NCBI GenBank assembly: GCA_903844155.1
Contig: CAIMSU010000166.1
Coordinates: 1 to 64,000, forward strand
From: an uncultured Pseudomonadota bacterium
GTDB lineage: Bacteria > Myxococcota_A > UBA796 > SXON01
Direction of reading: 5' to 3'
Length of the DNA stretch: 64,000 nt
The notes beneath the pieces are model-generated. The model was given only the letters and a program-made list of their open reading frames with translations, searched no databases and had not been told where the DNA came from. Positions 7,177 through 14,907 of this stretch are shown in pieces (within the stretch, counting starts at the first letter, position 1; every line of letters begins with the position of its first letter). A program made the translations under genes and the position numbers.

Positions 7177-8085
7177 GTGGCCGAGGCTGAATCGACCGTC
7201 GTAAACCTGCGCGTGCAGGTCATCGCGATGAAGTCGTTCACCCTCGATCTGCAAGTTCCCACCTACCTCCCCGCCCGCGATCTCACCCAGCGCGTGGCCC
7301 GCGACGCCGGCCTGGACGCGTTCTGGCCGGACGGTCGACGGCGCCTGTACTGGCTGCGCGCACGCGGACGGCTGATGCGCGACGAGGAGAAGCTCTCGGA
7401 CCTCGGCGTCATCAACGGCGAGCTCGTCTACCTGCTGCCCGAGCCCCCCGCTGGCAGCGGGGTGATGGAGCAGACGCCCGAGTACCCGGTGAACCAGGGC
7501 TACGCCGGTGCGGGCTGCCTGACGCTCGCCGGCTCGCTGTTTTTCGTTGTGCTCTGGACCTTTTTGTGGGGCGCCGCGCTCGGCACGTCGAGGAGCCTAT
7601 GGGTCACGTCGCTCCCCGGCCTGGCGCTCGGCCTGCTCTGCACCTCGCTCGCACGCCACGGCTGGGGCGGGCGCGGGACGCAGGTGAAGATCGCCTTGAC
7701 GGCGTTTGTCCTGCAGATGTTCCTCTCGATCGTCGCTGTCGCAGCGCCGATCATCTTCGCGGATCAGCCGGCGCTGGACATGTACTGGCAGGGGTCACCG
7801 GGGATTCTCCTTGGAATGATCGGGGTTTTCATTGGCTGGCTCGCGTGGTGGGGCGGCGTGGAGCCGCTGCCGACGGAGCAGGAGGCGAAGGCGGAGACGG
7901 CGCAGACGCAGGTGGCGGCGGTCGTGAACTGTGGCATCTGCGGCCTCGCGATCGACCAGAAAGTGCGCGTCGAATGCCAGTATACCTGCGGGCAGCACTT
8001 CCATCAGGGCTGTCTGAAGGCCAAGACCTCCGTGCACCGGGGCGACGGGTCCAAGTGTGCGGTCTGCGGGAAGAAGGTGGCATGA
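7177..8085 (+). CDS. Ubiquitin-like (YukD/EsaB-type) - four-TM - RING-like zinc finger membrane protein
   Basis: Three parts are visible. Residues about 9-88 form a beta-grasp ubiquitin-like domain of YukD/EsaB type (beta hairpin, helix, LYWLRARGRLMRDEEKL, then LGVINGELVYLL). About 114-226 hold four hydrophobic segments. The C-terminal 51 residues have a cross-brace zinc-finger spacing: C252-x2-C255, C267-x3-C271, H274-x-H276-x2-C279, C294-x2-C297. The core CGQHFHQGCL closely resembles a RING-H2 centre. YukD-like domains are known from type VII secretion loci; bacterial RING and treble-clef fingers are described but rare. The stop overlaps the start of the next gene (ATGA), indicating coupled translation. 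The biochemical role is unknown. Confidence 0.75.
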   Translation: MAEAESTVVNLRVQVIAMKSFTLDLQVPTYLPARDLTQRVARDAGLDAFWPDGRRRLYWLRARGRLMRDEEKLSDLGVINGELVYLLPEPPAGSGVMEQTPEYPVNQGYAGAGCLTLAGSLFFVVLWTFLWGAALGTSRSLWVTSLPGLALGLLCTSLARHGWGGRGTQVKIALTAFVLQMFLSIVAVAAPIIFADQPALDMYWQGSPGILLGMIGVFIGWLAWWGGVEPLPTEQEAKAETAQTQVAAVVNCGICGLAIDQKVRVECQYTCGQHFHQGCLKAKTSVHRGDGSKCAVCGKKVA

Positions 8086-8654
8086 ACGTGCATTCGCTCT
8101 CGATTCGGCCGCGAATCGCGTTCTCCGGTTCGGCGGGGATCGGGAAGACGACGCTGGCCCGACGCCTCGCGGCGGCGCTCGGCCTGCCGTACCTCGCAGA
8201 GGGAATGCGGCAATTCCTGGAGGCGGGCGGCGACCTCCACGCGTTGGGACCCGGCGGTTTGCGCGACCTGGTCCTCCGCCTCTGGGAGCAGCAGCGCGCC
8301 GCCGAGGACGCCGCCTTTCGCGCTTTCGGCGGCTTCGTCTCCGACCGGTCCGCGTTCGACATTGGCGCGTTCTGGATCTACTACGGGTTCGCCGCGGACG
8401 ACGCCGACACCCGCCGCATCTTCGCGGAGACGCAGGACCGCACCCGCTACGACGTGGTCTGGTTGCTGCCGTGGGGCGCGTTCCCGGTGGAGGCGGACGG
8501 CGTCCGGTCGAGCGATCCGTGGCGACAACTGCACGTCCACGTGCTGATCGAGGGCATGCTGGCGCGCGCCGGAGCGCCGGTTCGCCGGGTGACGGCCGGG
8601 CCGGTCGAGGCGCGACTGGCCGAGGTGCTGGCCGGCACGGCGATGACGGCATGA
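8082..8654 (+). CDS. P-loop ATPase/kinase of the NadR (AAA_28) type
   Basis: 190 residues with Walker A GSAGIGKT at 16-23, then FVSDRSAFDIGAFW, which matches the Walker B/acceptor region of NadR-like nucleoside kinases. Family members phosphorylate nucleosides such as nicotinamide riboside or act as small ATPases; the substrate is not clear from the sequence. ATG 8082 overlaps the RING-like gene stop, and the stop TGA 8652-8654 overlaps the deacetylase start. It is therefore embedded in a four-gene coupled operon with the ubiquitin-like/RING protein, the deacetylase-like hydrolase and the selenoprotein candidate. Confidence 0.75.
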   Translation: MNVHSLSIRPRIAFSGSAGIGKTTLARRLAAALGLPYLAEGMRQFLEAGGDLHALGPGGLRDLVLRLWEQQRAAEDAAFRAFGGFVSDRSAFDIGAFWIYYGFAADDADTRRIFAETQDRTRYDVVWLLPWGAFPVEADGVRSSDPWRQLHVHVLIEGMLARAGAPVRRVTAGPVEARLAEVLAGTAMTA

Positions 8655-9721
8655 CCCCAACCAGGCAATGTGTCCTTTCAAGCCGGGTCTTTCTGGAGCA
8701 CGACGGCGGTCCCGCGCACCCCGAGAGCCCCGACAGGCTTCGCGTCCTCCTTGGCGCGCTCAACGCCCGGGCCGCACCGGTGCTGGAACGACAGCGGCAG
8801 GCCATGGCGAAGCTGGCGGCCCGGCCCGACCAGGATCCCCTCCTCGCCGACGCCGTCGCCGCAGTCCAGGCGGTCATCGGGATGGGCGACCCGGGGTGGG
8901 TGGAGGGCGGACGCGCCGCGACCGTCGCAGAGCTCGAACGCGCCCACGACCCGGCCCACATCGCGCAGGTCCTGACCATCGCCGCCGCCCCCGGCCCGTG
9001 GCCGCGTGACGTGGGGGTCGAGGTGCCCATCGGACCCGGCTCCCTGAAGGCCGCGCTGTGGTCTGCCGGGACGGTCATCGAGGCGGTGGACCTGGCCCGG
9101 CGCGGGATCGAGGTCTGGGCGCTGGTCCGCCCGCCGGGCCACCACGCAACCAGGCGGTTGTCGCAGGGGTTTTGCGTCTTCAACAACGTCGCCGTCGGCG
9201 CGCTGCACGCCCTCGCACGCCCCGTGGTTGACGGGCAGCCCGCAGGCGTTCCGCGGACAACCCGCGTTGCCGTGCTCGACTGGGACGTGCACCACGGCGA
9301 CGGCACGCAGGACATCTTCTGGAACGAGCCCCACGCCACGCTCGTCTCCATCCACCAGCACCCCCTGTACCCCGAGTCCGGGGCTGCAGACGAGCGCGGC
9401 GCCCACGACAACATCGTCAACATCCCCCTCGGCTCCGGCAGCGACGACCGCGACTACTGCAACGCCATCGCCGACCGCGCACTCCCAGCCTTGACCGCCC
9501 GGAATCCCGACCTCCTCATCGTCTCCGCCGGCTTCGACGCGCAGGTCGGCGATCCCCTCGCCGGCATGCTCGTCACCCCCGCCGGCTTCGGACGCATGGC
9601 GGCGCTGGTGCGGTCCTGGGCGCAAGCCCGGGGAACCCCGCTCGTGTTCGTGCTGGAAGGCGGCTACAAGGTGGACACGCTGGCGGACTGTGTCCTCGCG
9701 GCGATGGGAGTGCCGGAATGA
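8651..9721 (+). CDS. Histone-deacetylase-superfamily zinc amidohydrolase
   Basis: Complete arginase/deacetylase-fold enzyme of 356 residues with the family motifs in order: RPPGHHA (H164/H165), GFCVFNN, LDWDVHHGDGT (zinc ligands D212 and H214), SAGFD (zinc ligand D296) and LEGGY with the catalytic Tyr339. Bacterial members remove acetyl groups from acetylpolyamines, acetoin-related substrates or acyl-lysines. The active site looks intact, so it should be functional. An N-terminal stretch (about 40-90) has extra helical sequence. It is coupled on both sides by ATGA overlaps. Neighbouring ubiquitin-like/RING and kinase genes raise the possibility of a protein-modification role, which is inference. 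Confidence 0.88.
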   Translation: MTPTRQCVLSSRVFLEHDGGPAHPESPDRLRVLLGALNARAAPVLERQRQAMAKLAARPDQDPLLADAVAAVQAVIGMGDPGWVEGGRAATVAELERAHDPAHIAQVLTIAAAPGPWPRDVGVEVPIGPGSLKAALWSAGTVIEAVDLARRGIEVWALVRPPGHHATRRLSQGFCVFNNVAVGALHALARPVVDGQPAGVPRTTRVAVLDWDVHHGDGTQDIFWNEPHATLVSIHQHPLYPESGAADERGAHDNIVNIPLGSGSDDRDYCNAIADRALPALTARNPDLLIVSAGFDAQVGDPLAGMLVTPAGFGRMAALVRSWAQARGTPLVFVLEGGYKVDTLADCVLAAMGVPE

Positions 9722-10107
9722 CCCAGGAAGCCGAACCCGCAGGCGAGGTCTGCATCGCGAACATCGGGCCACGCGAGCGGCGCAAACGCATGTTCTTCGG
9801 CCTCGCGACCATCGGCATCGGGGTGTTCTTCGCCGCGTTCCTGATGGAGTCCGGCGCCTCGCGTTGGGTCCGGATCGCGACCGCCCTCCCGTTCTGGGCC
9901 GGCGCGCTTGGCGTCTTCCAGGCGCAGGCCCACACCTGAGTGGGGCTGGCCTCGCGCGGTCTGCGCGACATGGACACAGGCGAGGAGCAGATCACGGACG
10001 CGATGGTCCTTCAGGCCGTGCGCAAACAGGCCCGCGGCGTCCATCTCAGGTCGATCGCGCTGTCGATCGCGCTGACCGCCCTCGCCCTCGCCCTCCCGGC
10101 GGTCTGA
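9718..10107 (+). CDS. Small three-TM selenoprotein candidate (in-frame TGA at codon 74)
   Basis: The frame starts at ATG 9718 (ATGA overlap with the deacetylase gene). It codes two hydrophobic segments (about 26-42 and 50-66), meets TGA at 9937-9939, and in the same frame continues with no other stop to TGA 10105, adding a charged helix and a third membrane segment. Directly after the first TGA lies a hairpin with a GGUCU loop at the same 18-nt distance as in E. coli fdhF. I read the TGA as selenocysteine, giving 129 residues with Sec74 at the membrane edge. From memory, Cys-containing homologues may exist at this position; this was not checked. If the TGA is a true stop, the gene is 73 codons and the tail is dead or starts at GTG 9940. 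Confidence 0.7.
9940..9973 (+). promoter_or_regulatory. Putative bacterial SECIS element
   Basis: Immediately 3' of TGA 9937-9939. Stem TCGCGC (9952-9957) pairs with GCGCGA (9963-9968) around the loop GGTCT (9958-9962). CC at 9950-9951 can pair with GG at 9972-9973 across a three-base bulge. Exactly 18 nucleotides separate TGA from the loop. The E. coli fdhF SECIS recognised by SelB has the same GGUCU loop at the same distance (recalled). It lies inside the coding frame, as bacterial SECIS elements do. Confidence 0.7.
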
Positions 10108-10896: not shown

Positions 10897-11585
10897 CGGG
10901 GCTGGGAGCTGTAGGAACGCGCGAGGCGCATCGGATTCACCCCAACCCGGTAACCGAGCCGAAGCGTCCATCCCTTCACGATCGTCGCGGTCACCCCCTC
11001 GCCTGCCCACCGCCGGGCGCTGGTGACGATCCCCGGGCGGAGCACCGCGCACGACGAGACGGCCCGGGCGCGGTCGACGAAAGAAACGTCCTCAAACGCG
11101 GAGAGTGCGCCGAACCCGCCGACAGAGTCGAACAGGGCCCGGTCGCACCAGATTCCCATGTCGCCCGTGCATCGGCCCGTCCACCTGGCGCGGGCGTTCA
11201 TCCATGCGCCGGCGAAAGCGAGCCGGGGGTCGTCCGAGGCCACGGTCGTCTCAAAGCAGCCCCAGCCGCCCGTCGCGCGCCTCAGGGCATCGACGGATTC
11301 GCCGGTCACCGACGAATCCGCGTGGAGAAACCAGCATCGTTCGTGGCTCGCCACCGCCGCCCCCGCGTCCAGTTGCAGCCCCCGTCCGCGCGCGCTCGTC
11401 GCTACCCTCGCCCCCGCACAGCGCGCGATCCCGACCGTGTCGTCCGCGCTCCCGCCATCCGCGACGATGACCTCGTCGACCAGCGGCAGCAGCGTCGCCA
11501 ATAAACCGCCGATGCAGGCGGCCTCGTTCAACGTCGGGATCACCACCGAGATCGCCCTCAAATTGGCGCCCCCCGCACTGGTCAC
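10893..11585 (-). CDS. Family 2 glycosyltransferase, TIGR04283-like
   Basis: GT-A glycosyltransferase of 230 residues: S-V-V-I-P-T-L-N-E near the N-terminus, V-I-V-A-D-G-G-S-x-D-D-T, then F-L-H-A-D (metal site), G-D-M-G-I-W and F-E-D-V. This set matches the TIGR04283 group, annotated as radical SAM/selenodomain-associated or arsenosugar-pathway transferases. No ArsM or ArsS gene is in the window, so the arsenosugar link cannot be supported here. The start is GTG 11585, overlapping the FHA gene stop (GTGA); TTG slightly downstream is possible. Donor and acceptor are unknown. Confidence 0.8.
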   Translation of the reverse strand: MTSAGGANLRAISVVIPTLNEAACIGGLLATLLPLVDEVIVADGGSADDTVGIARCAGARVATSARGRGLQLDAGAAVASHERCWFLHADSSVTGESVDALRRATGGWGCFETTVASDDPRLAFAGAWMNARARWTGRCTGDMGIWCDRALFDSVGGFGALSAFEDVSFVDRARAVSSCAVLRPGIVTSARRWAGEGVTATIVKGWTLRLGYRVGVNPMRLARSYSSQPR

Positions 11586-13543
11586 CGTGCCGCTTGCAGC
11601 GCGTCCATCCGGCGCTTGGCCTTGGCGCCCAGCTCGTCCGTCTCGCCCACCAGCGCGATCACCTGCCGGTACATGCGGATCGCGTCGCTCGTCTTGTCGA
11701 TGTCCTCCTGGATCCTCGCTTCCTTGTAGATGTCCTGGGCCTGGGCGCCGAGCTCGTCCTGCACCTCGGTGAGCTTGGCGCGCGCGGCGTTGTTGAAGGG
11801 GTCGGCCGCGACGGCCTGCTCCAATTGCTGACGCGCGGTCGGGTATTGCTTGGCGTTCAACGCCGTCAGCGCGGCCTGGTAGTGCTTGTCGCCCTCGGAC
11901 TTGAGCTGGTCCTTGGCGGAGCGGATCGACGCCTGCGCCTTGTAGTACTCGGGCGTGACCTGGTCGGGATCCTGGTTCATCACCGACTGCCACTGCTTGA
12001 TTGCGCCGGCCTCGTCCCCTGCGTCGGCCAGCGCCTGGCCCCGGTTGTAGGCGCTGGAGAGGTCGGGGAGGGCGTGGGAGGCGGTGGTGCGCGATGGGGT
12101 CGGCGGCGGCGGGCTGGCCGTCGTCCGAACGGGGGCGATGCGCGTCTGGGCGGGCTCGGGCGCGACGGGCGCGGGGGAGGCAGGGGCGACCGCAGCGGCC
12201 ACGGGCTCAACGGGGAGTGGGGCGACGGGCGCGGCGACGGGCGGTGGCAACGTCGTGCGCATCTCGGCGAACGCGATCTCCGTGCAGGCGCGGTAGCCCA
12301 ACCGTTCAGCAACCGGATTCTTCCCGTCGATCTGCAGCACCTTGTAGAACTGCGCCGCGGCATCAAAGAACTTGCCTTCCGACTCCAGCTTTCGCCCATC
12401 CTGCAGCAGCCGCTCGACCTCCCCGGCCTGGGTGGGCGAGAGAGCGACGGTCGCGGTCTGTGTGGCCGCGTGCTGCTTGTAGACGACGGTGCCGAGCACG
12501 ATGCAGGCGACGAGCCCGATCCCGCAGACGGCCAGCGCGACAACCGCCGCGATCGCCGTGTTGACCGGATTCGCGAAAACGCCCGGCTTGGCCGCGCCAA
12601 CGGTGGGTGCCACGTCCGCCGGACGGACGACGGAGGGGCGCCCCGCAGACGGGTTCGGGCTCGCCTGGGGCCGCTGCGGGGCGAGGCTGTTGCTGGTCTG
12701 GCGAGGGGCTGACGAGGCTGACGACGAGGGCGTGACGGGCGCACGCGATGCGGTCGGTGCCGGAATTGCCGCTGGCGCGGGCTGGGTGGCACGGGCTTGC
12801 GACGCGGGCGTTGGCGGCGCGATTGGCGCGCGGGTGCGCGTTGGCGTGTCCGGCTGCGATGCGGCGAAGTTGGCGGTCCCCTCCCCACCCGGCGCGAAGA
12901 ACTTGAGCTCGACCGTGCCGATCTTGAGCTTGTCGCCGTCCTTCAGGACCTGCTCGCGCACCTTGCGCCCGTTCACGAACGTGCCGTTGGAGCTGGCGCG
13001 ATCCCGCACCGTCCACACGCCGAGATGCCCGACGATCTCGCTGTTCACCCGCGACGCAGCGGGCTCCGGAAGCACGATGTCGTTCCGCTCGCCACGGCCC
13101 AGCGTGATCGTCGCCTCGGCTGGCACCTCGAACGCCGTGCGATCCATGCGGTGGTTGGAGACGAGCTCCAGGCGCGCAAAACCGTCTTCCAACCCGCCGA
13201 GTTTCAACGTCGACGCGGTCGACATGTTCGCCTCGTCCGTCTCGGCCGCGAGCAGCACCTGCAAGCGGAACGGGTCGATGACGATCTCGTCGCCGTCGTT
13301 CAGGCGCTGCCGTTTGAGCCGGCGCCCGTTGAATACGGAGCCGTTGCCGCTGCCGTTGTCCTCGTACTCCACGCCTTCGTCGTCCACGTGGAGCTTCGCG
13401 TGGCGCCGGGAAACGCCGATGTCCGAGAGGACGATGTCGTTGTCGTCCGCCCGACCGATGCTCATCGTGCCGCTTTCAAGCACGATTCTCCGATCCGGCA
13501 AGCCCGGACGGCGGATGACGAGTTCAACGTGGGAGGCGGCCAT
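11582..13543 (-). CDS. Two-FHA-domain membrane protein with C-terminal TPR-like region
   Basis: 653 residues. The first FHA domain (about 20-95) has S-I-G-R, S-R-R-H and a later N-G, the full phosphothreonine-binding set. The second (about 150-220) has L-G-R and S-N-G-T but reads S-R-V-N where S-R-x-H is usual, so its binding may be altered. A Pro/Ala/Thr-rich linker (about 225-330), one membrane segment (about 335-360) and, after another low-complexity stretch, helical TPR-like repeats follow. It probably senses Ser/Thr kinase activity at the membrane. It heads the unit with the glycosyltransferase and DUF547 genes, all with overlapping junctions. Confidence 0.85.
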   Translation of the reverse strand: MAASHVELVIRRPGLPDRRIVLESGTMSIGRADDNDIVLSDIGVSRRHAKLHVDDEGVEYEDNGSGNGSVFNGRRLKRQRLNDGDEIVIDPFRLQVLLAAETDEANMSTASTLKLGGLEDGFARLELVSNHRMDRTAFEVPAEATITLGRGERNDIVLPEPAASRVNSEIVGHLGVWTVRDRASSNGTFVNGRKVREQVLKDGDKLKIGTVELKFFAPGGEGTANFAASQPDTPTRTRAPIAPPTPASQARATQPAPAAIPAPTASRAPVTPSSSASSAPRQTSNSLAPQRPQASPNPSAGRPSVVRPADVAPTVGAAKPGVFANPVNTAIAAVVALAVCGIGLVACIVLGTVVYKQHAATQTATVALSPTQAGEVERLLQDGRKLESEGKFFDAAAQFYKVLQIDGKNPVAERLGYRACTEIAFAEMRTTLPPPVAAPVAPLPVEPVAAAVAPASPAPVAPEPAQTRIAPVRTTASPPPPTPSRTTASHALPDLSSAYNRGQALADAGDEAGAIKQWQSVMNQDPDQVTPEYYKAQASIRSAKDQLKSEGDKHYQAALTALNAKQYPTARQQLEQAVAADPFNNAARAKLTEVQDELGAQAQDIYKEARIQEDIDKTSDAIRMYRQVIALVGETDELGAKAKRRMDALQAAR

Positions 13544-13929: not shown

Positions 13930-14907
13930 TTACCGGCCAGCTTCCCGCCTGATGAACGGGAAGCGCTTCCCCCCGGCCACCAGCGCCCAGAACTCCTCCG
14001 GATGCACCAACGCCGGGTAGACCGCCAGCATTGCCGCCGGAAAGATCCCCAGAGCCATCGTCAGCGCAATGCCAACGTGGAGGCAAACCCCCAACGCCAC
14101 CCACACCCGCAACGGTCGTTTCGCATTGATGAACGCCCGTAGCCTCCCGGGGCGCTCCCGCGTGTCCCGGTACCAGTAGACGAGCGGGATGAAGCAGGCG
14201 CTCCACTCGAACACCATGGTCGTGGCGGTCGCCAGTTGGGTCAGCGGGTAGATGTTGCCGAGCCAGGCGAACGGCCAGCGGGCGATCGCGGGGTCCTGAA
14301 GGATAAGGTACAACGCTGCGAACCCACCGAGCGGTGTCCACGACATCGCGGTCTTCTGGATGCCGGCGCAGAAGTACATCACCGAGAGTTGGAGGATCAA
14401 CAGGTGGCGAGGCCACGCGGGCGCAAGCCGGCGGGTCCCAAAAATCACCGCGTCCAGACCGAACCGCCGGCCGCAGGAGGAGCACGAAAGGATGAGGATC
14501 ACGTTGCGGATCAGCGTGTCGATGCCCCGGTCACCGAGCGGCAGTACCTGCGCGAGCTGCGCAGAGACGAGCACTGCGATGACCCCCGAGAGAGGCGTGA
14601 GAAACCCAAGTCCGAACGCAGCCGTGCAGCCGACCATCACGCTCCACGCGAGCCAGGCCGTTCCGGTCGTCGCTGGAAACCAGCGATAAAGCTCGGGGAC
14701 GGGCGTCCGTGCAAGCGCGTCTGGAATACCCCCGCCCCGCTCGGGGGTGAACAGCATCTCGACGAGTCCAAGATGGGCCATGTCCAGAAAGTCGTAGAGA
14801 ACGACCGTCGCAAGCAGGATTCGGACGACCGCGAGCACGACCGGGTCCTCCTGCTTGTCCCAGAGGCGCACCCAAAGCGCCCAAAGCGCTGTGACCCGCG
14901 CTCTCAT
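13930..14907 (-). CDS. HTTM-domain membrane protein (vitamin K carboxylase-like)
   Basis: Polytopic protein of 325 residues with the HTTM (horizontally transferred transmembrane) layout. An early R-I-L-L-A-T-V-V-L-Y-D segment is followed by several helices, a loop with C-S-S-C-G-R-R-F-G-L-D, then Q-L-S-V-M-Y-F-C-A-G-I-Q-K-T, which matches the conserved helix/K motif of gamma-carboxylase-like proteins. Eukaryotic relatives carboxylate glutamate using vitamin K; bacterial ones are uncharacterised. It is coupled to the upstream gene by an ATGA overlap (14904-14907), a pairing typical of HTTM loci. Confidence 0.8.
   Translation of the reverse strand: MRARVTALWALWVRLWDKQEDPVVLAVVRILLATVVLYDFLDMAHLGLVEMLFTPERGGGIPDALARTPVPELYRWFPATTGTAWLAWSVMVGCTAAFGLGFLTPLSGVIAVLVSAQLAQVLPLGDRGIDTLIRNVILILSCSSCGRRFGLDAVIFGTRRLAPAWPRHLLILQLSVMYFCAGIQKTAMSWTPLGGFAALYLILQDPAIARWPFAWLGNIYPLTQLATATTMVFEWSACFIPLVYWYRDTRERPGRLRAFINAKRPLRVWVALGVCLHVGIALTMALGIFPAAMLAVYPALVHPEEFWALVAGGKRFPFIRREAGR

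Follow-up and report, generated by a model that had tools for sequence, protein, structure and literature searches.

Selenocysteine appears to be encoded by an in-frame TGA within a small membrane protein gene of the window (the whole 64,000-nucleotide stretch of DNA that was analyzed). On comparative sequence evidence, positions 9718 to 10107 of the forward strand encode, with a probability of about 0.94, a genuine 129-residue selenoprotein that depends on a SECIS element. A preliminary description had proposed this as a candidate, and the proposal is now supported by homologues, by covariation in a hairpin behind the TGA, and by selA, selB, and tRNA-Sec genes in the same genome. SelB and tRNA-Sec would decode the TGA at 9937 via the hairpin at 9952 to 9968, a mechanism supported by comparative evidence. 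The features are as follows.

9718..10107, forward strand: putative selenoprotein gene; 129 residues, selenocysteine (Sec) at residue 74, three predicted membrane helices
9937..9939, forward strand: in-frame TGA, the predicted selenocysteine codon 74; across the family TGA in 52/78, TGC or TGT in 26/78, other codons in 0
9769..9852, forward strand: predicted transmembrane helix 1, residues 18 to 45; invariant Asn15 lies just N-terminal
9862..9930, forward strand: predicted transmembrane helix 2, residues 49 to 71, ending just ahead of Sec74
10000..10092, forward strand: predicted long helix 3, residues 95 to 125, charged at its start and membrane spanning at its end
9952..9968, forward strand: putative bacterial SECIS hairpin with a 6-bp stem and a GGTCT loop that lies 18 nt from the TGA
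8654..9721, forward strand: upstream gene for a histone-deacetylase-family enzyme (Hist_deacetyl, E value of 3e-71)

The reading frame begins with ATG at 9718 and closes with a TGA at 10105 to 10107, and, as first described, the TGA at 9937 to 9939 is its sole internal interruption. An ordinary gene finder would stop at this codon, and the fold energy of the single sequence (z = 0.59) also sits well with a real stop after residue 73, or with a pseudogene carrying a nonsense mutation, where the downstream frame would be due to chance. However, third-position G+C is 0.90 upstream of the internal TGA, is still 0.91 downstream of it, and is 0.60 past the final stop, and the fold predicted by AlphaFold2 is continuous across the TGA with high confidence. 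The homologues also speak against termination: 51 other copies have TGA at this codon and 26 have a cysteine codon, all run into a common C-terminal region, and no homologue ends at codon 74. A real stop is therefore very improbable.

The family was found in a first search of 379 genomes of the window's phylum, in which the best matches carried one TGA inside; named copies place this phylum as Myxococcota. An alignment of 78 members was then assembled from profile searches of Myxococcota, Gemmatimonadota, Acidobacteriota, and named genome contigs. A single-protein query returned no match in the named genome contigs, where a profile built from eight Sec members did retrieve homologues, including one further member in Anaerolineae (Chloroflexota). 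The family thus occurs in four phyla (Myxococcota, Gemmatimonadota, Acidobacteriota, and Chloroflexota), across which the TGA-carrying members are themselves spread, with extra Cys copies in Acidobacteriota outside the 78-member set. The identity of residue 74 among homologues had been proposed as a check, and every member has either TGA (52) or a cysteine codon (TGC in 19, TGT in 7) there, with no other codon in any of the 78. None of the 78 has a second in-frame TGA. Asn15 and Sec/Cys74 are the sole invariant positions apart from the start.

This pattern also bears on two ways in which the codon might be passed without selenocysteine. A sense reading of the TGA is required in any case, and the codon could in principle specify another amino acid, such as Trp in an alternative code, or be crossed by general readthrough. 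Against this, all 26 members without the TGA have Cys in its place, the genome contains SelA, SelB, and tRNA-Sec, and the gene's own final stop is TGA, so that this reading has next to no probability. Alternatively, translation might terminate at the TGA and restart at once to give two coupled polypeptides of 73 and 55 residues; the window does read TGA-GTG, with a 55-amino-acid open reading frame beginning at GTG 9940. Restart is scarcely credible, however, given that many Sec members have a different codon behind the TGA (AGC, AGT-type, ATC, ACG, ACC, CCG, GTC, or GTA) and that Cys members, which are single fused chains, have lost the hairpin that covaries in Sec members.

The hairpin consists of TCGCGC (9952 to 9957), the loop GGTCT (9958 to 9962), and GCGCGA (9963 to 9968), confirming the perfect 6-bp stem, the loop, and the 18-nt spacing from TGA to loop that had been reported; the stem starts twelve bases past the TGA. 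When the downstream codons were shuffled in 200,000 trials, 0.1% of them produced a hairpin of 6 bp closing a 5-nt loop at precisely this position, and in none was the loop GGTCT. The DNA is GC-rich, and the minimum free energy of the hairpin alone is not unusual (z = 0.59), so the case for the hairpin had to rest on conservation and covariation; an Rfam scan of the window gave no match. The SECIS of E. coli fdhF likewise has GGUCU as its loop, equally far from the UGA. The likeness to formate dehydrogenase H (fdhF) is confined to this recoding signal, as the proteins are unrelated.

Comparison among members supplied that case. Allowing either of two registers one base apart, at least 5 of the 6 stem pairs form in 51/52 Sec members, compared to 6/26 Cys members. 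Eight Sec members (L105, L107, L108, L211, L213, L215, L217, and L221) have the hairpin shifted by one base, which is a natural SECIS register variant. Among the 41 distinct Sec sequences of the main register, the covariation score was 0.098, compared to 0.035 in shuffles (0 of 500); slid controls did not exceed 0.043. In these sequences, one stem pair varies as GC, AU, CG, UA, and GU, and changes on both sides of the stem occupy six cells versus 0.4 in shuffles. In three genomes a TCG-to-TCA change is paired with a CGC-to-CGT change; both are synonymous, indicating selection on the RNA. The glycine codon in the loop is GGT in 44/52 Sec members, GGG in 8/52, and GGC in 0/52, while GGT is found in only 2/26 Cys members and GGC is the commonest glycine codon in neighboring genes and in Cys members. 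Fisher values are not strict probabilities here, as the members are related.

Of the genes proposed as a genome-level check, selA, selB, and selC (tRNA-Sec) were found in the window's genome, which encodes SelB (279 bits, in a 610-residue open reading frame), SelA (441 bits), and a tRNA-Sec with anticodon TCA (65.6 bits, confirmed by ARAGORN). Across Myxococcota, tRNA-Sec was detected in 18/18 genomes with a TGA copy versus 3/19 with Cys copies only, and among named genomes it was clear in 16/18. The corresponding Gemmatimonadota values were 21/22 for TGA carriers, 3/3 for Cys carriers, and 10/15 for sampled genomes without the gene; co-occurrence adds no discrimination there because tRNA-Sec is common anyway. 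Three genomes (G592, G599, and G860) have a TGA copy without a clear tRNA-Sec, which may reflect incomplete assembly.

A tree of the family, which is based on few columns and weakly resolved, implies at least nine Sec/Cys changes, three of them on well-supported branches. A Sec copy and a Cys copy occur side by side in three genomes, namely G100 (L084 and L070), G308 (L022 and L069), and G469 (L091 and L072). A Cys copy in Gemmatimonadota (L200, in G896) is likely a recent Sec-to-Cys change, since it is nested in a well-supported Sec clade and its genome still has tRNA-Sec. Distribution is patchy, with a clear copy in only 2/71 genomes of the window's own class, a pattern that hints at acquisition by transfer or at repeated loss. 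Weak matches in G371, G573, G010, and G1193 were rejected as nonmembers.

The joined product is predicted to be a three-helix inner-membrane protein. An AlphaFold2 model built with 42 members (pLDDT of 94.3, pTM of 0.83) places helices at residues 18 to 45 and 49 to 71, a short helix after Sec74 (75 to 79), a beta hairpin, and a final helix at 95 to 125. Hydropathy agrees with the three membrane passes, matching the earlier prediction of two membrane helices before the TGA and a third after it. In the model, Sec74 would sit where helix 2 ends and would share a membrane face with the invariant Asn15. Positive charge is concentrated in the N terminus and in the stretch following Sec74, which under the positive-inside rule should make this face the cytoplasmic one. 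A sequence search of the PDB gave no match, and a Foldseek search of the PDB gave none with an E value of ≤0.001; the 50 matches listed did not include YgaP.

The window protein does not exceed the cutoff of any Pfam model. Among very weak Pfam matches, YgaP-like_TM (PF11127, DUF2892) came up most often, with a score of 8.6 bits versus a gathering cutoff of 25.3; SLATT, holins, and other DUFs gave weak, scattered similarities. Against a PF11127 set assembled from Myxococcota, hhalign scored the family at 26.1, compared to at most 17.1 in 200 shuffles and at most 13.3 for 46 membrane decoys (segments from one unrelated membrane protein family). This alignment places Asn15 on the PF11127 Asn and Sec74 on the Cys of the GxCPLY motif. 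In Acidobacteriota, the family profile retrieves a protein (L228, 31.3 bits) that is itself above the Pfam cutoff for YgaP-like_TM, and here too the Asn residues align with each other and its Cys aligns with Sec. We take the family and the YgaP-like transmembrane domain to be distant relatives and not one family. Both have an N-terminal Asn with an R..R...G segment, a pair of helices that brings the chain back to the side where it began, and one conserved Cys (or the aligned Sec74) just after helix 2. However, the family has Sec in place of Cys, an extra beta hairpin, and a third membrane helix, and it lacks the CPLY motif and the rhodanese domain and falls below the Pfam cutoff. E. coli YgaP is a membrane sulfurtransferase with a cysteine at site 159, inside its transmembrane domain (PMC4730233).

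This selenoprotein family could be found in no catalogue that we searched, consistent with the earlier impression that no family of its type had been described. A 2026 catalogue lists 119 prokaryotic selenoprotein families and includes no small three-helix membrane family like the window protein (PMC13188914); the passages on the nine additions of deep-Sep likewise name no small membrane family of this kind (PMC12013277). NCBIfam (release 20, June 2026), which models many catalogued selenoprotein families, has no match to the window protein at an E value of ≤10 and only weak, scattered matches to other members. Searches of openly accessible journal papers for a connection of selenoproteins to Myxococcota, Gemmatimonadota, YgaP, or DUF2892 returned nothing relevant. 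Features shared with known prokaryotic families are SelB/SECIS decoding and Sec/Cys pairs among homologues (PMC13188914). What appears new, judging from profile alignments, is the distant homology to the YgaP transmembrane domain, with its conserved Cys aligned with Sec.

Most characterized selenoproteins have a thioredoxin-like fold (PMC13188914), and here selenocysteine is instead placed in a tiny membrane protein. The prokaryotic selenoproteome would gain a family in at least four phyla, large-genome Myxococcota included, whose genes would look like truncated 73-residue proteins under ordinary gene calling. Selenocysteine is retained only where its chemistry pays, and for this reason its presence in the family suggests a working role for the conserved Cys, otherwise obscure, of the widespread YgaP/DUF2892 domain.

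Tentatively, and at somewhat less than even odds, we infer that the protein carries out membrane-bound thiol/selenol chemistry at the cytoplasmic face, either transferring sulfur or reducing peroxides. Near the membrane, the selenol would take up sulfane sulfur or reduce a peroxide or disulfide, and cytosolic thiols would afterwards reduce the selenol again. Thiol/selenol redox or sulfane-sulfur handling is suggested by the chemistry of selenocysteine and by the roles of YgaP and DoxX, the mycobacterial form of which is a component of a membrane-associated oxidoreductase complex (PMC6930017). A DoxX/MauE-like small membrane protein is encoded within about 1 kb in five family loci, one of which (G243) has a peroxiredoxin gene directly upstream. 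The DoxX-SodA-SseA complex is an analogy only, as the selenoprotein is unrelated in sequence and the window gene has no adjoining DoxX gene. An N-terminal cysteine (Cys12) was considered as a resolving partner and is found in 26/43 Sec and 13/23 Cys sequences; since many members lack it, an intramolecular Sec-Cys bond would not be general.

Soft metals are bound well by selenocysteine, and the protein might instead bind a metal or metalloid. Such a role would resemble that of the putative mercuric transport proteins among known selenoproteins (PMC13188914). However, only one Sec/Cys is invariant, a second Cys is absent from many members, and neighbor analysis revealed no metal-resistance gene common to the family, making metal binding unlikely. 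A broader and slightly more speculative suggestion is that the YgaP-type transmembrane domain might be a membrane thiol catalyst by itself and the family its selenium-boosted form, a minimal membrane enzyme. In such an enzyme, a single selenol at the cytoplasmic interface could act on sulfane sulfur or peroxides or in quinone-linked redox, and DoxX-like proteins and peroxiredoxin might at times be its partners.

The gene neighborhood differs among members, and no neighbor is common to the whole family. In the window, the end of the deacetylase gene (9721) overlaps the selenoprotein start by ATGA, and this overlap is real; the proposed operon with the deacetylase and a ubiquitin-like/RING protein, however, is local and was not seen in relatives, and it gives no basis for inferring function. 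The stretch from 7177 to 8082 (forward strand) encodes a protein that combines a YukD (ubiquitin-like) domain at its N terminus with apparent membrane helices and, at its C terminus, a RING-like zinc motif; such a joining of ubiquitin-like and RING parts is unusual for a bacterium. On the reverse strand, 11582 to 13540 encodes a protein in which TPR repeats accompany two FHA stretches, and 13930 to 14904 encodes an HTTM-domain membrane protein. PADLOC returned no match. In relatives, two loci have an NAD(P)H-binding NmrA-like protein as a neighbor. Polyangiaceae-type loci (L087, L086, L098, L077, and 14 more) have a divergent upstream protein of ~912 residues that combines a TLC ATP/ADP-transporter-like part with HEAT repeats, and in many of them a protein with two cyclic-nucleotide-binding-like regions comes next. 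We regard the TLC/HEAT neighbor as synteny by descent within this clade. Many members, including L068, L087, L088, L089, L096, and L091, have a −10-like box (e.g., TAGACT or TATAGT) 8 to 14 bases upstream of the start codon, a position as expected for leaderless mRNAs.
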